A DNA stretch of 64,000 bases from Caulobacter ginsengisoli (GTDB lineage: Bacteria > Pseudomonadota > Alphaproteobacteria > Caulobacterales > Caulobacteraceae). This document shows, one piece after another, positions 51,042 through 60,709 of this stretch. The first letter of the stretch is position 1, and every line of letters begins with the position of its first letter. The notes beneath the pieces were generated by a model. The model was not told the origin of the DNA. It saw only the letters and a list, made by a program, of their open reading frames with translations, and ran no database searches. The translations under genes were made by a program, and so were the position numbers. The stretch covers positions 496,001 to 560,000 of the forward strand of contig NZ_JAUSVS010000002.1 of assembly GCF_030814835.1 (NCBI RefSeq), written 5' to 3'.

Positions 51042-52448
51042 TTACTCCGCGGCGGCCGAGGCGACTGCGCCGCGCCAGGCGTCAAGGTCGTCCAGGGCGC
51101 GCAGGGAGGCAAGCCGCTTGCGGGCCCGGCCTCGCTCGGCCGGCTTCAGGCGGCGGCCATCGTCGGCCTTCTTCGGCGTGGCGTCCTCGATGGGCGGCAA
51201 CAGGCCGTAGTTGATGTTCATCGGCTGGAAGCTGGCGGGCTGGCCTTCGAGGTGGCCGCCGGTGATGTGGTTGACCAGGGCGCCCAGCGCCGTGGTGGCC
51301 GGCGGGGCTTCCAGGGCCTGGCCCAGGCGCTCGGCGGCGGCCAGGCGGCCGGCCAGCAGCCCGATGCCGGCGCTTTCGACATAGCCCTCGACCCCGGTGA
51401 CCTGGCCGGCGAAGCGCAGGCGGGGTTGGACCTTCAGCCGCAGCTGGCGGTCCAGCAGGCGGGGGCTGTTGAGGAAGGTGTTGCGATGCAGCCCGCCCAG
51501 CCGGGCGAACTGGGCGTCCTGCAGGCCCGGGATGGTGCGGAAGACCTCGGTCTGGGCGCCGTGCTTCAGCTTGGTCTGGAAGCCCACCATGTTCCACAGC
51601 GTGCCCAGGGCGTTGTCCTGTCGCAGCTGGACGATGGCGTAGGCCTTCTCGGTAGGATTATGGGCGTTGGTCAGGCCCACCGGCTTCATCGGGCCGTGGC
51701 GCAGGGTCTCGCGGCCGCGCTCGGCCATCACCTCGATGGGCAGGCAGCCGTCGAAATAGGGGACGTTCTCCCACTCCTTGAACTCGGACTTGGGCCCGGC
51801 CATCAGGGCGTCGATGAAGGCCTCGTACTGGGCCTTGTCCATCGGACAGTTGATGTAGGCGGCTGCGTCGCCCCCCGGGCCTTCCTTGTCGTAGCGTGAC
51901 TGGCGCCAGGCCACGCTCATGTCGATGCTGTCGAGATGGATGATCGGTGCGATGGCGTCGAAGAAGGCCAGCTGGCCCTCGCCGGTCAGGTCCAGGATGG
52001 CCTGCGCCAAGGCCGGAGAGGTGAGGGGGCCGGTGGCGACGATGACGCTGTCCCAGTCGGCGGGCGGCAGGCCGGCGATCTCCTCGCGGGCGATGGTGAT
52101 CAGCGGATGGGCCTCGATGCGCCGGGTGACCTCGGCCGAGAAGCCGTCGCGGTCGACCGCCAGCGCCCCGCCGGCCGGCACCTGGCTGAGGTCGGCGGCG
52201 GCCATGATCACCGAGTCCAGCCGCCGCATCTCGGCGTGCAGCAGGCCCACGGCATTGTGCTCCCAGTCGTCGGAGCGGAACGAGTTGGAGCAGACCATCT
52301 CGGCCAGGCCGTCGGTCTGGTGGGCGTCGGTGCCGCGAATGGGCCGCATCTCGTGCAGGATCACGGGCGCCCCGGCCTGGGCCGCCTGCCAGGCGGCCTC
52401 CGAGCCGGCCAGGCCGCCGCCGATGACGTGGATGGGTTTTTGGGTCAT
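51042..52448 (-). CDS. trmFO: Methylenetetrahydrofolate-tRNA-(uracil-54-C5)-methyltransferase
   Basis: The 468-residue flavoprotein makes ribothymidine at tRNA position 54, with methylenetetrahydrofolate as carbon donor. The FAD motif [18 protein letters not shown] (about 6-23) is followed by [20 protein letters not shown] (about 38-57), with the conserved Cys region, and later [15 protein letters not shown], all TrmFO signatures (formerly Gid). The gene diverges from the membrane-protein array across 105 bases and is followed by the ICMT-like gene. Confidence 0.94.
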
Positions 52449-52553: not shown

Positions 52554-53477
52554 ATGGCTAAATTCGACGTGGCCGACGCCGCATTGGCGGGGTTCGGTGT
52601 GATCCGGCGCAAGCCGCTGGCGGTGCTGGTCTGGGGGCTGGTGATCTATGTGCTGGCCATCGTGCCGGCCATCGGCATCATCGGCGCGCTGTTCAATTTC
52701 GTCCATCAGATGAGCGAGATCGCCCGCAGCGGCGTCGAGCCCAGTCCACATGATATCCTGAGGGCGGAGAGCCAGCTCTTCTTCCAGAATCCGCTGGCGA
52801 CGATCGGCAGCCTGCTGGTGCGGGTCCTGCTGGCGGCGGCGATCTGCCGGGCCGTCGTGACGCCCAAGGACGACCGCTTCTTCTATCTGCGGCTGGGTCG
52901 GGGCGAGCTGATGCTGGCCCTGGTCATCATCGTCGCCGCCGTCCTGCTGACCCTGGCCATCATGGTCTATGCGGGCGTGGCCGTGGCGCTGGGCTTCCTG
53001 GCCTACAAGATTTCGCAGGGCGTCATGATCGCTTGGTGCATCATCGCCGCCATTGGCTACATCGTTGGCCTGATCTGGGTGCTGCTGCGCTTCTCGCTGA
53101 TCGCCCCCGCCAGCGTCATCGAGAAGGAATTCCGCCTGTTCGAGTCCTGGCGGCTGACCAAGGGTCACGCCGGTTCGCTGTTCCTGGTTGGCCTGCTCAA
53201 CCTGGTCGTTGTCTTCCTGGTTCAGTCCCTGCTCAGCGCCCTGCTGTTTGGGGTGGGCGGGGTGGCGCTGATCAGCACCAACGCCATGGGCAGTCTCACC
53301 GAGGCCAACATCGAGGCCTTCTTCAGCCAGCCGCCCGGCGTGGTCACCCAGCAACTCCTGCCCTGGTTCCTGGGGTTGGGGCTGATCGTGGCGATGGTCG
53401 CCTCGGTGATGATCACCGTGGCGATGGCGCCCTGGGCCCATGTCTACAAGGCGCTGACGGAGCCGGTGGAGGGTTAA
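52554..53477 (+). CDS. Polytopic membrane protein, array paralogue 1 of 4
   Basis: The 307-residue protein has about six hydrophobic spans. It shares five motif positions with three neighbouring genes: ALAGFGVIRRKPL near the N-terminus, AAAICRAVVTP (about 94-104), YLRLGRGELM, LFESWRLTKGHAGSL (about 195-209) and APWAHVYKAL at the C-terminus. The layout resembles the GPDPase_memb/YciC-like superfamily of unknown function. GGGAGGGG precedes the ATG. Between the spans are charged loops that could contact lipid head groups. No catalytic residues are obvious. Confidence 0.7.
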   Translation: MAKFDVADAALAGFGVIRRKPLAVLVWGLVIYVLAIVPAIGIIGALFNFVHQMSEIARSGVEPSPHDILRAESQLFFQNPLATIGSLLVRVLLAAAICRAVVTPKDDRFFYLRLGRGELMLALVIIVAAVLLTLAIMVYAGVAVALGFLAYKISQGVMIAWCIIAAIGYIVGLIWVLLRFSLIAPASVIEKEFRLFESWRLTKGHAGSLFLVGLLNLVVVFLVQSLLSALLFGVGGVALISTNAMGSLTEANIEAFFSQPPGVVTQQLLPWFLGLGLIVAMVASVMITVAMAPWAHVYKALTEPVEG

Positions 53478-53562
53478 TTCGTTAAGGGGTTTGAGAGGCC
53501 CGGCGGTCTAGACTGAAAGTCCGGGCGATTCGTCCGTTCAATTCAGTCTCAGACCGTTGCGC

Positions 53563-54480
53563 ATGTCCGACTTTTCGCCAACCGACGCCGCCTTCGAGGG
53601 CTTCAGGATCATCCGGGACAAACCCGGCGCGACGCTGGGCTGGACGGCCTTCGGCTTCCTCTGGTTCCTGCTGCTGGTCGGGGTGCTGTCCACGGGTCTG
53701 CTGACCCACCTGACCGAGATCAGCCGCGAGCTGCGGCCCACGGGCGGCGGCCGCGACTGGGAAGAACTGGCCGCCCGGTTCGGCCCGGCCGCCACGGTGG
53801 GCTTCATCCTGTCGTTCGCCATCTACTGCATCATCAAGTCGGCCATCTACCGGGCGGTGCTGCATCCCGACTGGCGGGGCCTGTCGCACCTCAATCTGGG
53901 CAAGGACGAGCTGAGGGTCTTCGGGGTCGAGCTGGCCTCGCTGCTGATCCTGGCCGCCTACTGGGCCATCGGTTTCGCCCTGGTGGTGCTGGTCACCCAG
54001 CCGCTGGCCTGGCCGCTGCGGTTCCCGATCCGGCTGCTGCTGGGCTTTGTGCTGATGGCGGGCTGGGTGTGGTGGGGCGTTCGGCTGGCCCTCAACAAGG
54101 TAGCCTCCTATGCCGAGGCCCAGGTGAGCGTCTTCGGATCCTGGGCTCTGACCCGGGGCCGGTTCTGGCCGTTGCTGGGCATGTTCCTGGCCGCCGGCGT
54201 GATGGGCGTGCTGCTGGCCCTGTTCGGGCTGGCGGTCACCCTGGGCGTCATCCGGGCGGTCGGCCTCAGCGCCAAGGGCGCCGTCGAAGGGCATCTGGAC
54301 GTGGCCGGGGCCCTGGCGGCGCTGGGCAAGATCCTGCTGGCGGCGGCGGTCAACATCCTGGCGCTGATCCTGCAGCTGACCATCACCATCGCCCCGACTG
54401 CCCGAGCCTATGAGCGCATCAAGGCCGCCGGCGCCGCGCCGCCTTTAGCGTCCGCCGACGCTGCGCCGGCAACGGCCTAA
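53563..54480 (+). CDS. Polytopic membrane protein, array paralogue 2 of 4
   Basis: The 305-residue protein follows paralogue 1 by 85 bases and has the same plan: AAFEGFRIIRDKPG (about 8-21), KSAIYRAVLHPDWRG (about 90-104), LNLGKDELRVF, VFGSWALTRGRFWPLLG (about 189-205) and APTARAYERIKAAG at the end. Six or so membrane spans lie between. ATG 53563 is used, since the TTG six bases upstream lacks support. The stop overlaps the convergent GST gene by four bases. Confidence 0.7.
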   Translation: MSDFSPTDAAFEGFRIIRDKPGATLGWTAFGFLWFLLLVGVLSTGLLTHLTEISRELRPTGGGRDWEELAARFGPAATVGFILSFAIYCIIKSAIYRAVLHPDWRGLSHLNLGKDELRVFGVELASLLILAAYWAIGFALVVLVTQPLAWPLRFPIRLLLGFVLMAGWVWWGVRLALNKVASYAEAQVSVFGSWALTRGRFWPLLGMFLAAGVMGVLLALFGLAVTLGVIRAVGLSAKGAVEGHLDVAGALAALGKILLAAAVNILALILQLTITIAPTARAYERIKAAGAAPPLASADAAPATA

Positions 54481-55088
54481 GCGTTGGCGCTGGGCCGCGC
54501 CGCCAGGCCTTCCCGCCAGGCCGCCAGGTGCGTCGCTTCCGCCGGCGGCTCCAGCCCGGTGAAGCCGGCGAAGTCCAGGGTGGTCTGGGCGACGATGTCG
54601 GCCATGCTGTAGCGGCCCGCCAGATAGGGTCGGCCGTCGGCCAGTTCCCGGTCTAGCCACAGGCAGACGCGGGCGAAGATCTCGCGGTTGGACTCGCCGA
54701 ACTCGCGGTTCTGGGTCAGCAGGGCGGCGGTGAGCGGGTGGGCGTGGCGCCAGAACATGCCGACCGGCGTCATCAGCTGAAACTCGATGCGGCGGATCCA
54801 CATGTCGATCAGCGCCGCCTCCAGGGGCGTTTCGCCAAACAGCTTGGGCCCCTCGCAGGTGGCATCCAGATAGCGGCAGATCGAGACGCTTTCCGAGATC
54901 ATCGTGCCGTCGTCCAGTTCCAGCACCGGCACCTGGCCCAGGCTGTTGCGGGCCTTGTGCTCGGCGCTCTTGTGCTCGCGCTCGCGCAGGTTGACCCGGG
55001 TCTCGGGCAGGTCGATCCCCTTCTCGGCGATGAAGATGCGCACCCGGCGCGGATTGGGGGCGGGGTTTCGCTCGCCGTAGAAGATCAT
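54477..55088 (-). CDS. Glutathione S-transferase family protein
   Basis: The 203-residue protein has a thioredoxin-like N-domain (MIFYGERNPAPNPRRVRIF, then NSLGQVPVLELDDG about 49-62 and the SESVSICRYL glutathione-binding loop about 65-74) and an all-helical C-domain with GRYSMADIVAQTTLDF (about 157-172). The catalytic residue is not obvious (Tyr or Ser near residue 4). The gene is on the opposite strand inside the membrane-protein array, overlapping paralogue 2 convergently, and has no evident link to it. Confidence 0.88.
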   Translation of the reverse strand: MIFYGERNPAPNPRRVRIFIAEKGIDLPETRVNLREREHKSAEHKARNSLGQVPVLELDDGTMISESVSICRYLDATCEGPKLFGETPLEAALIDMWIRRIEFQLMTPVGMFWRHAHPLTAALLTQNREFGESNREIFARVCLWLDRELADGRPYLAGRYSMADIVAQTTLDFAGFTGLEPPAEATHLAAWREGLAARPSANA

Positions 55089-55174
55089 GGGTCGGCTCCG
55101 TTGGAAGAGCGCTTGTTGCCGACGGGGCGGGGTGTGTCTAGTCTCGCCTGATAGGTGAACCGCAGGGGGCTGCG

Positions 55175-56062
55175 ATGAAGGTCAATGTTGGCGGCGCTGT
55201 CGTCGAAGGATTCCGGGTTATCGGGCGCGAGCCGCTCAGCCTGGTCGGATGGGCGCTTGCCCTGGTCGGCTACTATATCGTCCAGTTTGTCGTCGGACTG
55301 ATCTCCGGCGGGCTGGGCGTGGGCATGATGGCCCAGATGTCCCAGCTCCGGACGGGCCAGTTCAACAGCGGCGCGGTCGGCGGCCTTCTCCTCATGTTCC
55401 TGATGATCATGGCGGTGGGTTATATCTTCTTCGGGATCGTCGGCTCGGCGATCTACCGGGCGGTGCTGGACCCGACCGGCAGCCGGGCCTGGGCCCGGAT
55501 GCGGCTGGGCGCGAACGAGTTTCGCATGGCCCTAACCCTGTTCCTGGTCACCCTGATCTATATCGTCTGGTACATCCTGACGGTGATCGTGCTGTTCATG
55601 CTGTTCCGCATGGGCGGCCTTGGCAACCTGCTGGGCTTCATCGCCGGGGTATTCTCAGCCCTGTCCTTCCTATCGCTTTTCGCCTTCGTGGGGCCTATGA
55701 CGCTGGACAAGGGCCGGATCAGCATCTTCCCGGCCGTCAGCGCCGCGGCGAGCAACTACTGGCGGCTGATGGGCATGAACGCCCTGCTCTGCCTGATGCT
55801 GATCGTCCTCTACATCGTGCTGGTCCTGCTGGTCCTCGTCCTCATGGGCGGCAGCATGGCGGCGCTTTCCAGCGGCGATCCGGCCCAGACCGAACAGGCC
55901 ATTCTGGGCATGTTCACCTCGCCGATCACCATCGTCTCGATCCTGATCGTGGGGCCGCTGCTGGCCGCGGTGGTGCAGGTTCTGTTCGTCAGTCCGGCCG
56001 CCCGCGCCTATGCGGACGTCGCTGGCTCCAGTTCGGCCCAGCAGGCCGAAGCGTTTAGCTGA
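55175..56062 (+). CDS. Polytopic membrane protein, array paralogue 3 of 4
   Basis: The 295-residue protein repeats the array plan: AVVEGFRVIGREPLSLVGW (about 8-26), GSAIYRAVLDPTGS (about 90-103), RLGANEFRMALTLF and SPAARAYADVAG near the C-terminus. The fourth motif is weaker (ASNYWRLMGMNALL), so it is the most diverged copy. Five or six hydrophobic spans are rich in Met, Val and Leu. It starts 86 bases after the GST start on the other strand and is followed, 10 bases after its stop, by the sulfotransferase-like gene, with which it is probably co-transcribed. Confidence 0.7.
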   Translation: MKVNVGGAVVEGFRVIGREPLSLVGWALALVGYYIVQFVVGLISGGLGVGMMAQMSQLRTGQFNSGAVGGLLLMFLMIMAVGYIFFGIVGSAIYRAVLDPTGSRAWARMRLGANEFRMALTLFLVTLIYIVWYILTVIVLFMLFRMGGLGNLLGFIAGVFSALSFLSLFAFVGPMTLDKGRISIFPAVSAAASNYWRLMGMNALLCLMLIVLYIVLVLLVLVLMGGSMAALSSGDPAQTEQAILGMFTSPITIVSILIVGPLLAAVVQVLFVSPAARAYADVAGSSSAQQAEAFS

Positions 56063-56072
56063 GGGCCCGACT

Positions 56073-56690
56073 GTGGTGCTGAAAGTCATTGGCGCGGGCC
56101 TTGGCCGCACCAGCACAATGTCGCTGAAACTGGCCCTGGAGCAGCTGGGCCTGGGTCGCTGCCACCATATGATGGAGGTGTTCGGCCGGCCGGAGGACAT
56201 CGACCTCTGGCGGCGGGCCGGAGAGGGCGAGGCGGTCGACTGGGAGGTGCTGTTCGACGGCTTCAGCTGCGCGGTCGACTGGCCTTCGGCCGAGTTCTAC
56301 GGCGTGCTGGCCCAGCGCTATCCCGACGCCAAGGTGATCCTGACTACCCGCGACGCCGACAGCTGGTTCAGGTCCACCCAGGCGACCATCTTCGCCGATC
56401 CGGACTTCAAGAACGCGCCGCCGGGCTTCGCAGCGATGGTCGCGGCGGTGATCGGCCAGAAGTTCGACGGCCGGCTGAACGACCGCGACCACTGCATCGC
56501 CGTCTATGAACGCCATAACGCCCAGGTGCGCGCCAGCATTCCCGCGGACCGCCTGCTGGAATACCACCCCGGCCAGGGCTGGGGGCCGCTCTGCGACTTC
56601 CTGGGCCTGCCGGTCCCGGAGGCGCCCTATCCAAAGGTCAACAGCACCGAAGAGTTCGTCCAGCGGCAGGCCGCCGCTGGACCCCACTGA
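56073..56690 (+). CDS. Sulfotransferase-family protein (Sulfotransfer_4-like)
   Basis: The 205-residue protein starts at a GTG (the next codon is also GTG) with the PAPS-binding-like loop IGAGLGRTSTMSLKLALEQL (about 5-24), followed by RCHHMMEVF, VILTTRDADSWFRST (about 89-103, 3'-phosphate Arg/Ser region) and ASIPADRLLEYHPGQGWGPLCDFLGL. These are the motifs of the group of small sulfotransferase-like proteins with unknown acceptors. It follows paralogue 3 at 10 bases. P-loop nucleotide binding is likely; the acceptor is not known. Confidence 0.83.
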   Translation: MVLKVIGAGLGRTSTMSLKLALEQLGLGRCHHMMEVFGRPEDIDLWRRAGEGEAVDWEVLFDGFSCAVDWPSAEFYGVLAQRYPDAKVILTTRDADSWFRSTQATIFADPDFKNAPPGFAAMVAAVIGQKFDGRLNDRDHCIAVYERHNAQVRASIPADRLLEYHPGQGWGPLCDFLGLPVPEAPYPKVNSTEEFVQRQAAAGPH

Positions 56691-56840
56691 GGCGGCCTGG
56701 TGGCGCAGCCTGGGCCCGTGATGCGATGTCCGGCCGCCGTATTCGAGTGAGACCGGCGCGAACGAGGGTTTCCTTGGCGGGTGGGACGGCTACCATCGCC
56801 CAAACGCCGGCCAGGCCGGCTCGATAGGGAGTAGGGGACC

Positions 56841-57767
56841 ATGGCATTTTCACCATCGGAGGTCGCGTTCGAGGGTTTCCGCCTGGCGCGGCAGCGGCCG
56901 CTGACGGTCGTAGCGCTGAGCGTGGTCGGGCTGGCCGCGGCCTTCGCCACCTACTGGGTCATGGGCGCCTCGGGCTACATGCAGGCGGTAAGCCAGGTCG
57001 CCGCCGCCGGGCCCAGCGCCGATCCCTCCGCGGCGCTTGGCCTGCTTCGGCCGATGTTCCTCTTCTTCGCCGGCTGTGCGCTGATCGGCTGTGTTTCGAC
57101 CGCGATTCAGGCCGGCGCCATCTATCGCGGCGTCCTTCGACCGCAGGAGCATGGCTTTCTGGGCCTGTCCTTTGGGGCCGACGAGCTACGGCTGTTGCTG
57201 CTGGGCGTGATCCTGGTGCTGCTGGGCACGCTTGTCGGCATCGCGCTGATCATCGTGCTGGCGATCGTGTTGAGCGTCCTGGGCGCTGTTCTGGGCGCGT
57301 CGGGCATGGTCGGCGGGGCGATCCTGATGGTCCTGCTCTCCTACGTGGTGATGGGGGTGGTTGCGCTCTGGCTGGGCGTGAAGATGTCGTTCGCCGGGCC
57401 GGCCACCTTTGCGCGCCGTGAGCTCAGCGTGTTCGCCAGCTGGTCGCAGACCAGGGGAAATTTCTGGAACCTGCTGGGCTGCTATTTCCTGGCCTTCATC
57501 CTGGCCCTGCTGATCGGCTTCATCATGTTCGTCGTCGGAGTGACGGTGGCCAGCGTCGTGGCCGGCGTGCCGTTCATGACCGCGGTGCGCGAGTTCTTCC
57601 CGAGCAAGCCGACCGGGTCGATGGACCTCTATTCGCCCGTACGCCTGACCTACACCCTGGTCTCGGCCTTGTTCGGCGGCCTGCTGAACATGGTGCTGAT
57701 GGCGCCGGCGGCCGAGGCCTATCGCCAGGTCGTTCAGACCGGGACGCAGGCCGACACCTTCAACTGA
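56841..57767 (+). CDS. Polytopic membrane protein, array paralogue 4 of 4
   Basis: The 308-residue protein carries the array motifs VAFEGFRLARQRPLTVVAL (about 8-26), AGAIYRGVLRPQEHG (about 92-106), LSFGADELRLLLLG, VFASWSQTRGNFWNLLG (about 197-213) and APAAEAYRQVVQ at the end. It is closest in motif 1 and 4 to paralogue 2. The 150-base gap upstream (56691-56840) separates it from the sulfotransferase gene and could hold a promoter. A hairpin follows between this gene and the convergent uvrA. Confidence 0.7.
   Translation: MAFSPSEVAFEGFRLARQRPLTVVALSVVGLAAAFATYWVMGASGYMQAVSQVAAAGPSADPSAALGLLRPMFLFFAGCALIGCVSTAIQAGAIYRGVLRPQEHGFLGLSFGADELRLLLLGVILVLLGTLVGIALIIVLAIVLSVLGAVLGASGMVGGAILMVLLSYVVMGVVALWLGVKMSFAGPATFARRELSVFASWSQTRGNFWNLLGCYFLAFILALLIGFIMFVVGVTVASVVAGVPFMTAVREFFPSKPTGSMDLYSPVRLTYTLVSALFGGLLNMVLMAPAAEAYRQVVQTGTQADTFN

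Positions 57768-57829: not shown

Positions 57830-60709
<2,880 letters not shown>

Follow-up and report, generated by a model that had tools for sequence, protein, structure and literature searches.

A paralogue array between trmFO and uvrA in Caulobacteraceae: very probable members of the GPDPase_memb/UPF0259 (YciC) superfamily

The CTL/SLC44 (choline transporter-like) proteins human CTL1 and yeast PNS1 contain 10 membrane helices and share a core of three hairpins and interfacial helices arranged with threefold pseudosymmetry; a 2026 description calls this fold unusual and names CysZ and SLC25 as look-alikes, and the function of the CTL/SLC44 proteins is disputed (PMC13160678). CysZ moves sulfate (PMC5967866), and Escherichia coli YciC, when overexpressed, lowered intracellular d-alanine and was proposed to be an exporter (PMC10299036). 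We analyzed an array of four paralogous membrane protein genes in Caulobacter ginsengisoli, located in a window of 64,000 nt (the whole stretch of DNA under study; NZ_JAUSVS010000002.1, positions 496,001-560,000, forward strand). Arrays of this kind are a new family inside a known, little-understood superfamily, and the match in predicted shape of the four proteins to human and yeast choline-transporter-like proteins and to CysZ is a testable lead on the function of all of them.

The four genes, designated paralogues A to D, are as follows:

52554-53477, forward strand: paralogue A, 307 residues, the first gene of the array; its sister genes in the tree are mostly "first after trmFO"
53563-54480, forward strand: paralogue B, 305 residues, ATG start; belongs to a 12-row set of the tree
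55175-56062, forward strand: paralogue C, 295 residues, the most divergent copy
56841-57767, forward strand: paralogue D, 308 residues, the last gene of the array, adjoining uvrA; its structure was modelled

A preliminary description of the window, made from the sequence, had proposed four same-strand genes for diverged paralogues of 295 to 307 residues. The genes are real, the lengths are corrected to those listed above, and a profile built on A to D recovers each of the four, which form one family and do not fall into unrelated ones. In pairwise blastp comparisons, E values ranged from about 5e-6 (A and C) to 1.4e-19 (B and D) at 25 to 32% identity. None of the four reached the cut-off of any Pfam or NCBIfam family, and the best E value against PHROG was 0.34. 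The start of B is placed at the ATG at 53563 (MSDFS...), not at the upstream TTG at 53557, because it matches the family consensus start M-x-x-F-S. The proposed count of about six membrane spans holds for B, C and D, with six predicted hydrophobic windows each, and seven windows were predicted in A. Four of the five proposed shared motifs stood; C does not contain F-x-S-W-x-x-T-[RK]-G, the R181, W201 and G206 of the family being replaced there by L, V and S, respectively (here and below, residue numbers, including R96 and E115, are those of D).

We consider it very probable that A to D belong to a superfamily made up of GPDPase_memb (PF10110) and UPF0259 (YciC), with a fold of the CysZ/CTL type. 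The four sequences gave no match to PF10110 at an E value of 1, and no match to UPF0259 was found for them or anywhere in the window's genome. In an alignment of 117 family members (A2, the source of the 117-member profile, the tree and the residue counts used below), the GPDPase_memb profile weakly matched 16 of the 117 at an E value of 0.5, the best at 2.3e-5. HHalign comparison of A2 with an alignment of 32 GPDPase_memb domains (A3, in which 32 of 32 match PF10110) gave 90% and an E value of 1.6e-6 over 201 columns, including the S-W-x-L-T-x-G region; a second run gave 80% and a score of 45.4, where the highest of 30 column shuffles scored 18.7 and the reversed profile 14.1. For UPF0259/YciC, represented by 13 YciC-like sequences, HHalign gave 72%, an E value of 3.4e-5 and a score of 40.5, compared with at most 16.5 in 30 shuffles and 16.7 on reversal, over 68 columns around helices 4 and 5 that cover about a quarter of the protein. 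A bridge protein from the class sample, L117, passes the PF10110 cut-off (32.6 bits against a curated gathering score of 29.6 bits) and is found by the A2 profile at an E value of 4.5e-27. E. coli YciC has likewise been predicted to have six membrane regions (PMC10299036).

The likeness to GPDPase_memb thus consists of profile homology and of the CTL and CysZ look-alikes that the structure models of both have in common. The two differ in that R96 and E115 are invariant in the array family but not in the GPDPase_memb set, and in that GPDPase_memb enzymes have a fused glycerophosphodiester phosphodiesterase (GDPD) domain; A to D, at 295 to 308 residues, gave no GDPD match, whereas the relatives L164 and L166 do carry the fused domain. 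The window's own genome also holds a GPDPase_memb match below the cut-off (L171:1129-1902, forward strand).

D was modelled with AlphaFold2 from A2; the model has six long helices, a mean predicted local distance difference test score (pLDDT) of 94.3 and a predicted template modelling score (pTM) of 0.90. Structural matches were ranked by realignment against the chains that Foldseek placed highest, and the realignment was followed over Foldseek alone. The D model realigned to CysZ with a Z score of 12.9 (root mean square deviation of 4.7, 222 residues of a 236-residue chain), to human CTL1 with 12.7 and to yeast PNS1 with 12.4; the CTL1 and PNS1 entries lay between 12.2 and 12.7, and the next entry was at 7.2. 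A second model, of a GPDPase_memb domain (L224:501-1535; pLDDT 90.9, pTM 0.86), matched PNS1 with a Z score of 19.0 (272 residues, 4.0 Å), CTL1 with 16.2 and 15.8, and CysZ with 12.9, the next unrelated entry being at 6.9. Far down the list for this model were mitochondrial ADP/ATP carriers (Z scores of 5.8 over 214 residues and 5.4 over 205), which echo the SLC25 resemblance reported for CTL1 and PNS1.

Three points weigh against this fold assignment. With Foldseek alone, neither model had a match at an E value of 0.001 or better: for D, ATP-binding cassette exporters came first (TM score of about 0.2) and PNS1 tenth (probability 0.99, TM score of 0.40), and the GPDPase_memb model had PNS1 at the top of its list, at an E value of 0.044 and a TM score of 0.41. 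A Z score near 13 is possible for unrelated helical bundles according to the aligner's own note, so that the values for D are borderline; this doubt is largely removed because the homologous GPDPase_memb model reaches PNS1 with a Z score of 19.0. Finally, the link to CysZ is structural only, because the family profile finds no significant CysZ sequence match. HHalign gave 0.9% and a score of 19.5, with 10 column shuffles scoring up to 22.4 and unrelated neighbour families up to 19.3, and sequence homology to CysZ is therefore unproven. CysZ did not match GPDPase_memb (0.25%) or YciC (0.16%) by HHalign, and PF07264 (EI24), the family of CysZ, had no match in A to D or in the window's genome and weakly matched 2 of the 117 members (best E value, 0.18).

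We put the chances at about even that the GPDPase_memb/YciC superfamily is the prokaryotic counterpart of CTL/SLC44, with the same fold and probably a common origin, and that the arrays are a lineage-specific expansion of it. The resemblance concerns the core; D has six long helices where CTL1 and PNS1 have 10. The Choline_transpo profile (PF04515) had no match in A to D at an E value of 1 or in the window's genome. Bacterial Choline_transpo proteins were set aside as a sequence bridge, with weak matches in 11 of 150 phylum-sample genomes at an E value of 0.1 and none of the 150 over the cut-off. A DUF6159 protein (L169:1396-2304, reverse strand; the same frame as L305) weakly matches GPDPase_memb and DUF7847 and, for one genome, Choline_transpo at an E value of 0.007, below the cut-off; it is a possible sequence bridge between the superfamily and SLC44. 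Sequence matches in the Protein Data Bank to two designed proteins (E value of about 0.05, with the family) and to Ninjurin-1 (from an E value of 0.047, with GPDPase_memb) were not used. DUF898 was rejected: although C matched it weakly (0.035), a search with the family profile gave no DUF898 protein at an E value of 10. Viral structures gave no match at an E value of 0.001.

The connection of this superfamily, and of those members that carry a fused phosphodiesterase, to the CTL/SLC44 fold may be new; among the papers listed in searches of the open-licence literature, we recognised none on this array or on a link between GPDPase_memb and CTL. Through its enzyme fusions and its conserved multi-copy locus, a large, little-characterised bacterial superfamily on the CTL fold would open routes for genetics and biochemistry that the eukaryotic proteins do not offer. 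If the superfamily is indeed the counterpart of CTL/SLC44, the phosphodiesterase fusion would suggest an ancestral role common to both, concerned with phospholipid head groups or the products of their breakdown. Such a role could come to light in a genetically tractable bacterium that has one to seven natural paralogues.

The helix list of the D model is consistent with three two-helix hairpins and short interfacial helices, the arrangement reported for CTL1 and PNS1 (PMC13160678). As we read this list, the five proposed motifs occupy corresponding places: G-F-R...P before hairpin 1 and A-x-x-R-A-V-L-x-P after it, L-G-x-D-E-L before hairpin 2, and S-W-x-L-T-x-G before hairpin 3 with P-x-A-x-A-Y after it. 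Sequence comparison supports an internal repeat between the first and last thirds of A2 (1-102 and 191-308), at 89% and an E value of 2.1e-6, with a score of 35.1 against at most 12.9 in 40 shuffles and 19.7 on reversal. Neither the first and middle thirds (0.58%, score 11.4 against 11.8 in shuffles) nor the middle and last thirds (6.4%, score 17.5 against 13.2 in shuffles) gave a significant match, and a threefold repeat is thus not upheld by sequence, the first-to-last comparison alone being significant.

With the two sides of the membrane taken from the model's helix list, lysine and arginine number 15.5 per 100 residues on the side of the motifs and 3.9 on the other, and the bias is toward the motif side in 117 of 117 members. 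This concentration of positive charge makes a single fixed orientation in the inner membrane most likely for each protein, with both ends predicted to be cytoplasmic. The one-sided charge, scored in the array family alone, argues against an inverted, dual-topology assembly of the kind reported for CysZ (PMC5967866).

R96 and E115 are invariant in all 117 members, 113 of which have R or K at position 181. In the D model, R96 is at the end of helix 2, E115 at the start of helix 3, and R/K181 at the end of helix 4. As judged from these helix ends, the three residues would form a cluster on the cytoplasmic floor of a bowl open to the periplasm, and this cluster may be the binding site of a small anionic or zwitterionic group. 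The proteins would then be inner-membrane permeases or exporters of fixed topology for small polar or zwitterionic solutes, such as amino-acid-like compounds or phospholipid head-group products, with each paralogue tuned to its own substrate. Transport of such a solute is our best reading by analogy with YciC and CysZ, held tentatively and slightly ahead of a lipid-head-group role; the family and its fold are well supported, and function is an inference. Several considerations count against transport. In oocytes, CTL1, PNS1 and CherI are reported to show no choline transport, and the authors consider transport difficult to square with the CTL fold (PMC13160678). The evidence for YciC export is overexpression in one study (PMC10299036). 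The residue cluster was read from helix ends, and C has lost R181. Nor do the neighbouring genes (trmFO, uvrA, and those for a glutathione S-transferase [GST] and a sulfotransferase) indicate a substrate.

A role other than transport is, in our view, nearly as probable. The same bowl could instead hold a phospholipid head group, or else a lyso- or glycerophospho-compound, and the proteins would sense lipids, provide a scaffold or work together with lipid enzymes; the GDPD-fused relatives would then present substrate to their enzyme. Such a role agrees with the one suggested for eukaryotic CTL proteins, whose CTL1 and PNS1 maps contain an unknown ligand and lipid-like densities and for which no choline transport was seen (PMC13160678), and it draws on the fusion of GPDPase_memb domains to glycerophosphodiester phosphodiesterase in L164 and L166 and on the Z score of 19.0 between the modelled GPDPase_memb domain and PNS1. 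The fusion and the CTL/SLC44 fold of that model also lend indirect support to the preliminary suggestion of lipid handling. The reported d-alanine export by YciC (PMC10299036) and sulfate movement by CysZ (PMC5967866) speak against a lipid role, as does the difference in invariant residues between the GPDPase_memb set and the array family; no lipid gene was recognised beside the arrays, most of whose neighbours were unscanned.

The array pattern is beyond chance. The A-D profile matched 115 of 119 sampled Caulobacteraceae genomes, in 21 of 22 genera, and the A2 profile had matches in 99 of 100 genomes from the order, a sample that includes 21 Caulobacteraceae, and in 40 of 190 from the class. 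For Caulobacterales, uncurated genes at a fixed locus can now be treated as a defined family, divided into position-specific groups and carrying the testable signature R96, E115 and R/K181. In the window, the genes that flank or interrupt the array are the following:

51042-52448, reverse strand: trmFO, the conserved left flank (NCBIfam PRK05335, E value 1.8e-201)
54477-55088, reverse strand: GST gene inside the array (Pfam GST_N_2, E value 2.1e-15)
56073-56690, forward strand: sulfotransferase-like gene (Pfam Sulfotransfer_4, E value 8.9e-61)
57830-60709, reverse strand: uvrA, the conserved right flank, named from its translation without a profile

The GST and sulfotransferase genes that had been thought to interrupt the array are confirmed by these Pfam matches. 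The longest frame of the sulfotransferase-like gene runs from 56010, and GTG starts at 56073 and 56076 avoid an overlap with C. We fetched 59 loci, 57 from other Caulobacteraceae genomes and 2 from the window's own genome, which with the window makes 60; they were chosen for holding family members and so show where the family sits, not how frequent an empty locus is. Both trmFO and uvrA were present in 51 of the 60, from 16 of the 22 sampled genera, and in 51 of 51 at least one family member lies between them, in uniform orientation and on the strand opposite to both flanks. The array is therefore conserved in relatives. Of the other nine loci, L092 has trmFO only and eight have neither flank, with copies elsewhere or not resolved. 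Two further family members lie outside the array in the window's own genome, as found with the profile of the four (L084:242-1186 and L085:8034-8786, both reverse strand). In L065 and L072, the trmFO reading frame extends into the array. A GST gene is found inside the array in 21 of the 51 loci, including six of the eight with a single copy, and tends to travel with the array locus.

The number of paralogues between the flanks varies from one to seven: one in 8 loci, two in 14, three in 8, four in 13, five in 3, six in 3 and seven in 2, as counted by match position with a score floor (L086 counts as three, with one weak member below the floor). The earlier picture of a family kept as four copies in one place was therefore too narrow. 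A fixed four-subunit complex is unlikely as a general rule, since single-copy loci exist (8 of 51). The paralogues could alternatively assemble, as CysZ does, into antiparallel dimers or hexamers built from different copies and forming an ion or solute channel, which would give a definite shape to the hetero-oligomers suggested in the preliminary description. The match of the D model to CysZ and the description of CysZ as a trimer of antiparallel dimers (PMC5967866) are in keeping with such an assembly, and co-located paralogues are common, with at least three in 29 of 51 loci. It is nevertheless improbable in our judgement, given that the one-sided charge of all 117 members favours one orientation and that the single-copy loci have no second paralogue in the array.

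Gene-tree groups follow array position, and many of the paralogues are for that reason older than the genera. In a maximum likelihood tree of the 117 members, in which 41 of 114 inner branches were highly supported and details are unsure, array-position labels required 30 changes; shuffled labels needed 63.2 on average, and 0 of 200 shuffles reached so low a count. A falls within a supported 32-row set in which 24 genes are first in their array (Shimodaira-Hasegawa-like approximate likelihood ratio test [SH-aLRT] support of 96), and the divergent C is in the same set. B belongs to its 12-row set with 9 middle genes (SH-aLRT 95), and the nearest rows to D are last-in-array genes, at a lower support of 80 to 92. 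A few loci have younger local duplicates. That many of the duplications predate the genera is thus supported, and the proposal of an old duplication with specialisation is borne out by the positional groups.

A purely neutral expansion, in which tandem duplicates of little individual function are kept by chance at a recombination-prone spot, would account for the variable copy number (1 to 7) and for the loss of conserved residues from C. We hold it to be very unlikely: positional groups are maintained across genera, coding G+C content at third codon positions is 0.885 to 0.921 across A to D, and the R96 and E115 shared by all 117 members are also kept in 28 and 27, respectively, of 29 divergent array members of 230 to 310 residues, in which R/K181 is kept in 28 of 29.

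Many arrays contain an extra divergent class, mostly of 250 to 300 residues and matching at about 20 to 80 bits, in which R96, E115 and R/K181 are mostly kept. It is present in L046, L050, L055, L059, L062, L065, L067-L080, L082, L086, L087, L091, L093 and L094; the window is without it. Outside Caulobacteraceae, 20 hand-picked loci comprised 7 with members between trmFO and uvrA (several with other genes there too), 4 with one of the two flanks and 9 with neither. Gene neighbourhoods outside Caulobacteraceae were mixed (amidases, PALP, PhyH, ketopantoate hydroxymethyltransferase and subtilase) and gave no substrate clue. In one genome of the order, genes for a DUF898 membrane protein and an M48 peptidase lie between the array and trmFO (L150:8944-11584, forward strand).

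Two features of the C termini were also observed. Two members (L046:3515-4576, reverse strand, and L081:7924-9489, forward strand) are extended at the C terminus by tails with many His, Asp and Gly residues, which look like metal-binding segments. Phe is the next-to-last residue in 31 of 139 full-length members, compared with 28 of 2363 preceding tail positions; it is found in C (...AEAFS) and D (...ADTFN), not in A or B, and might be a degradation or interaction tag.

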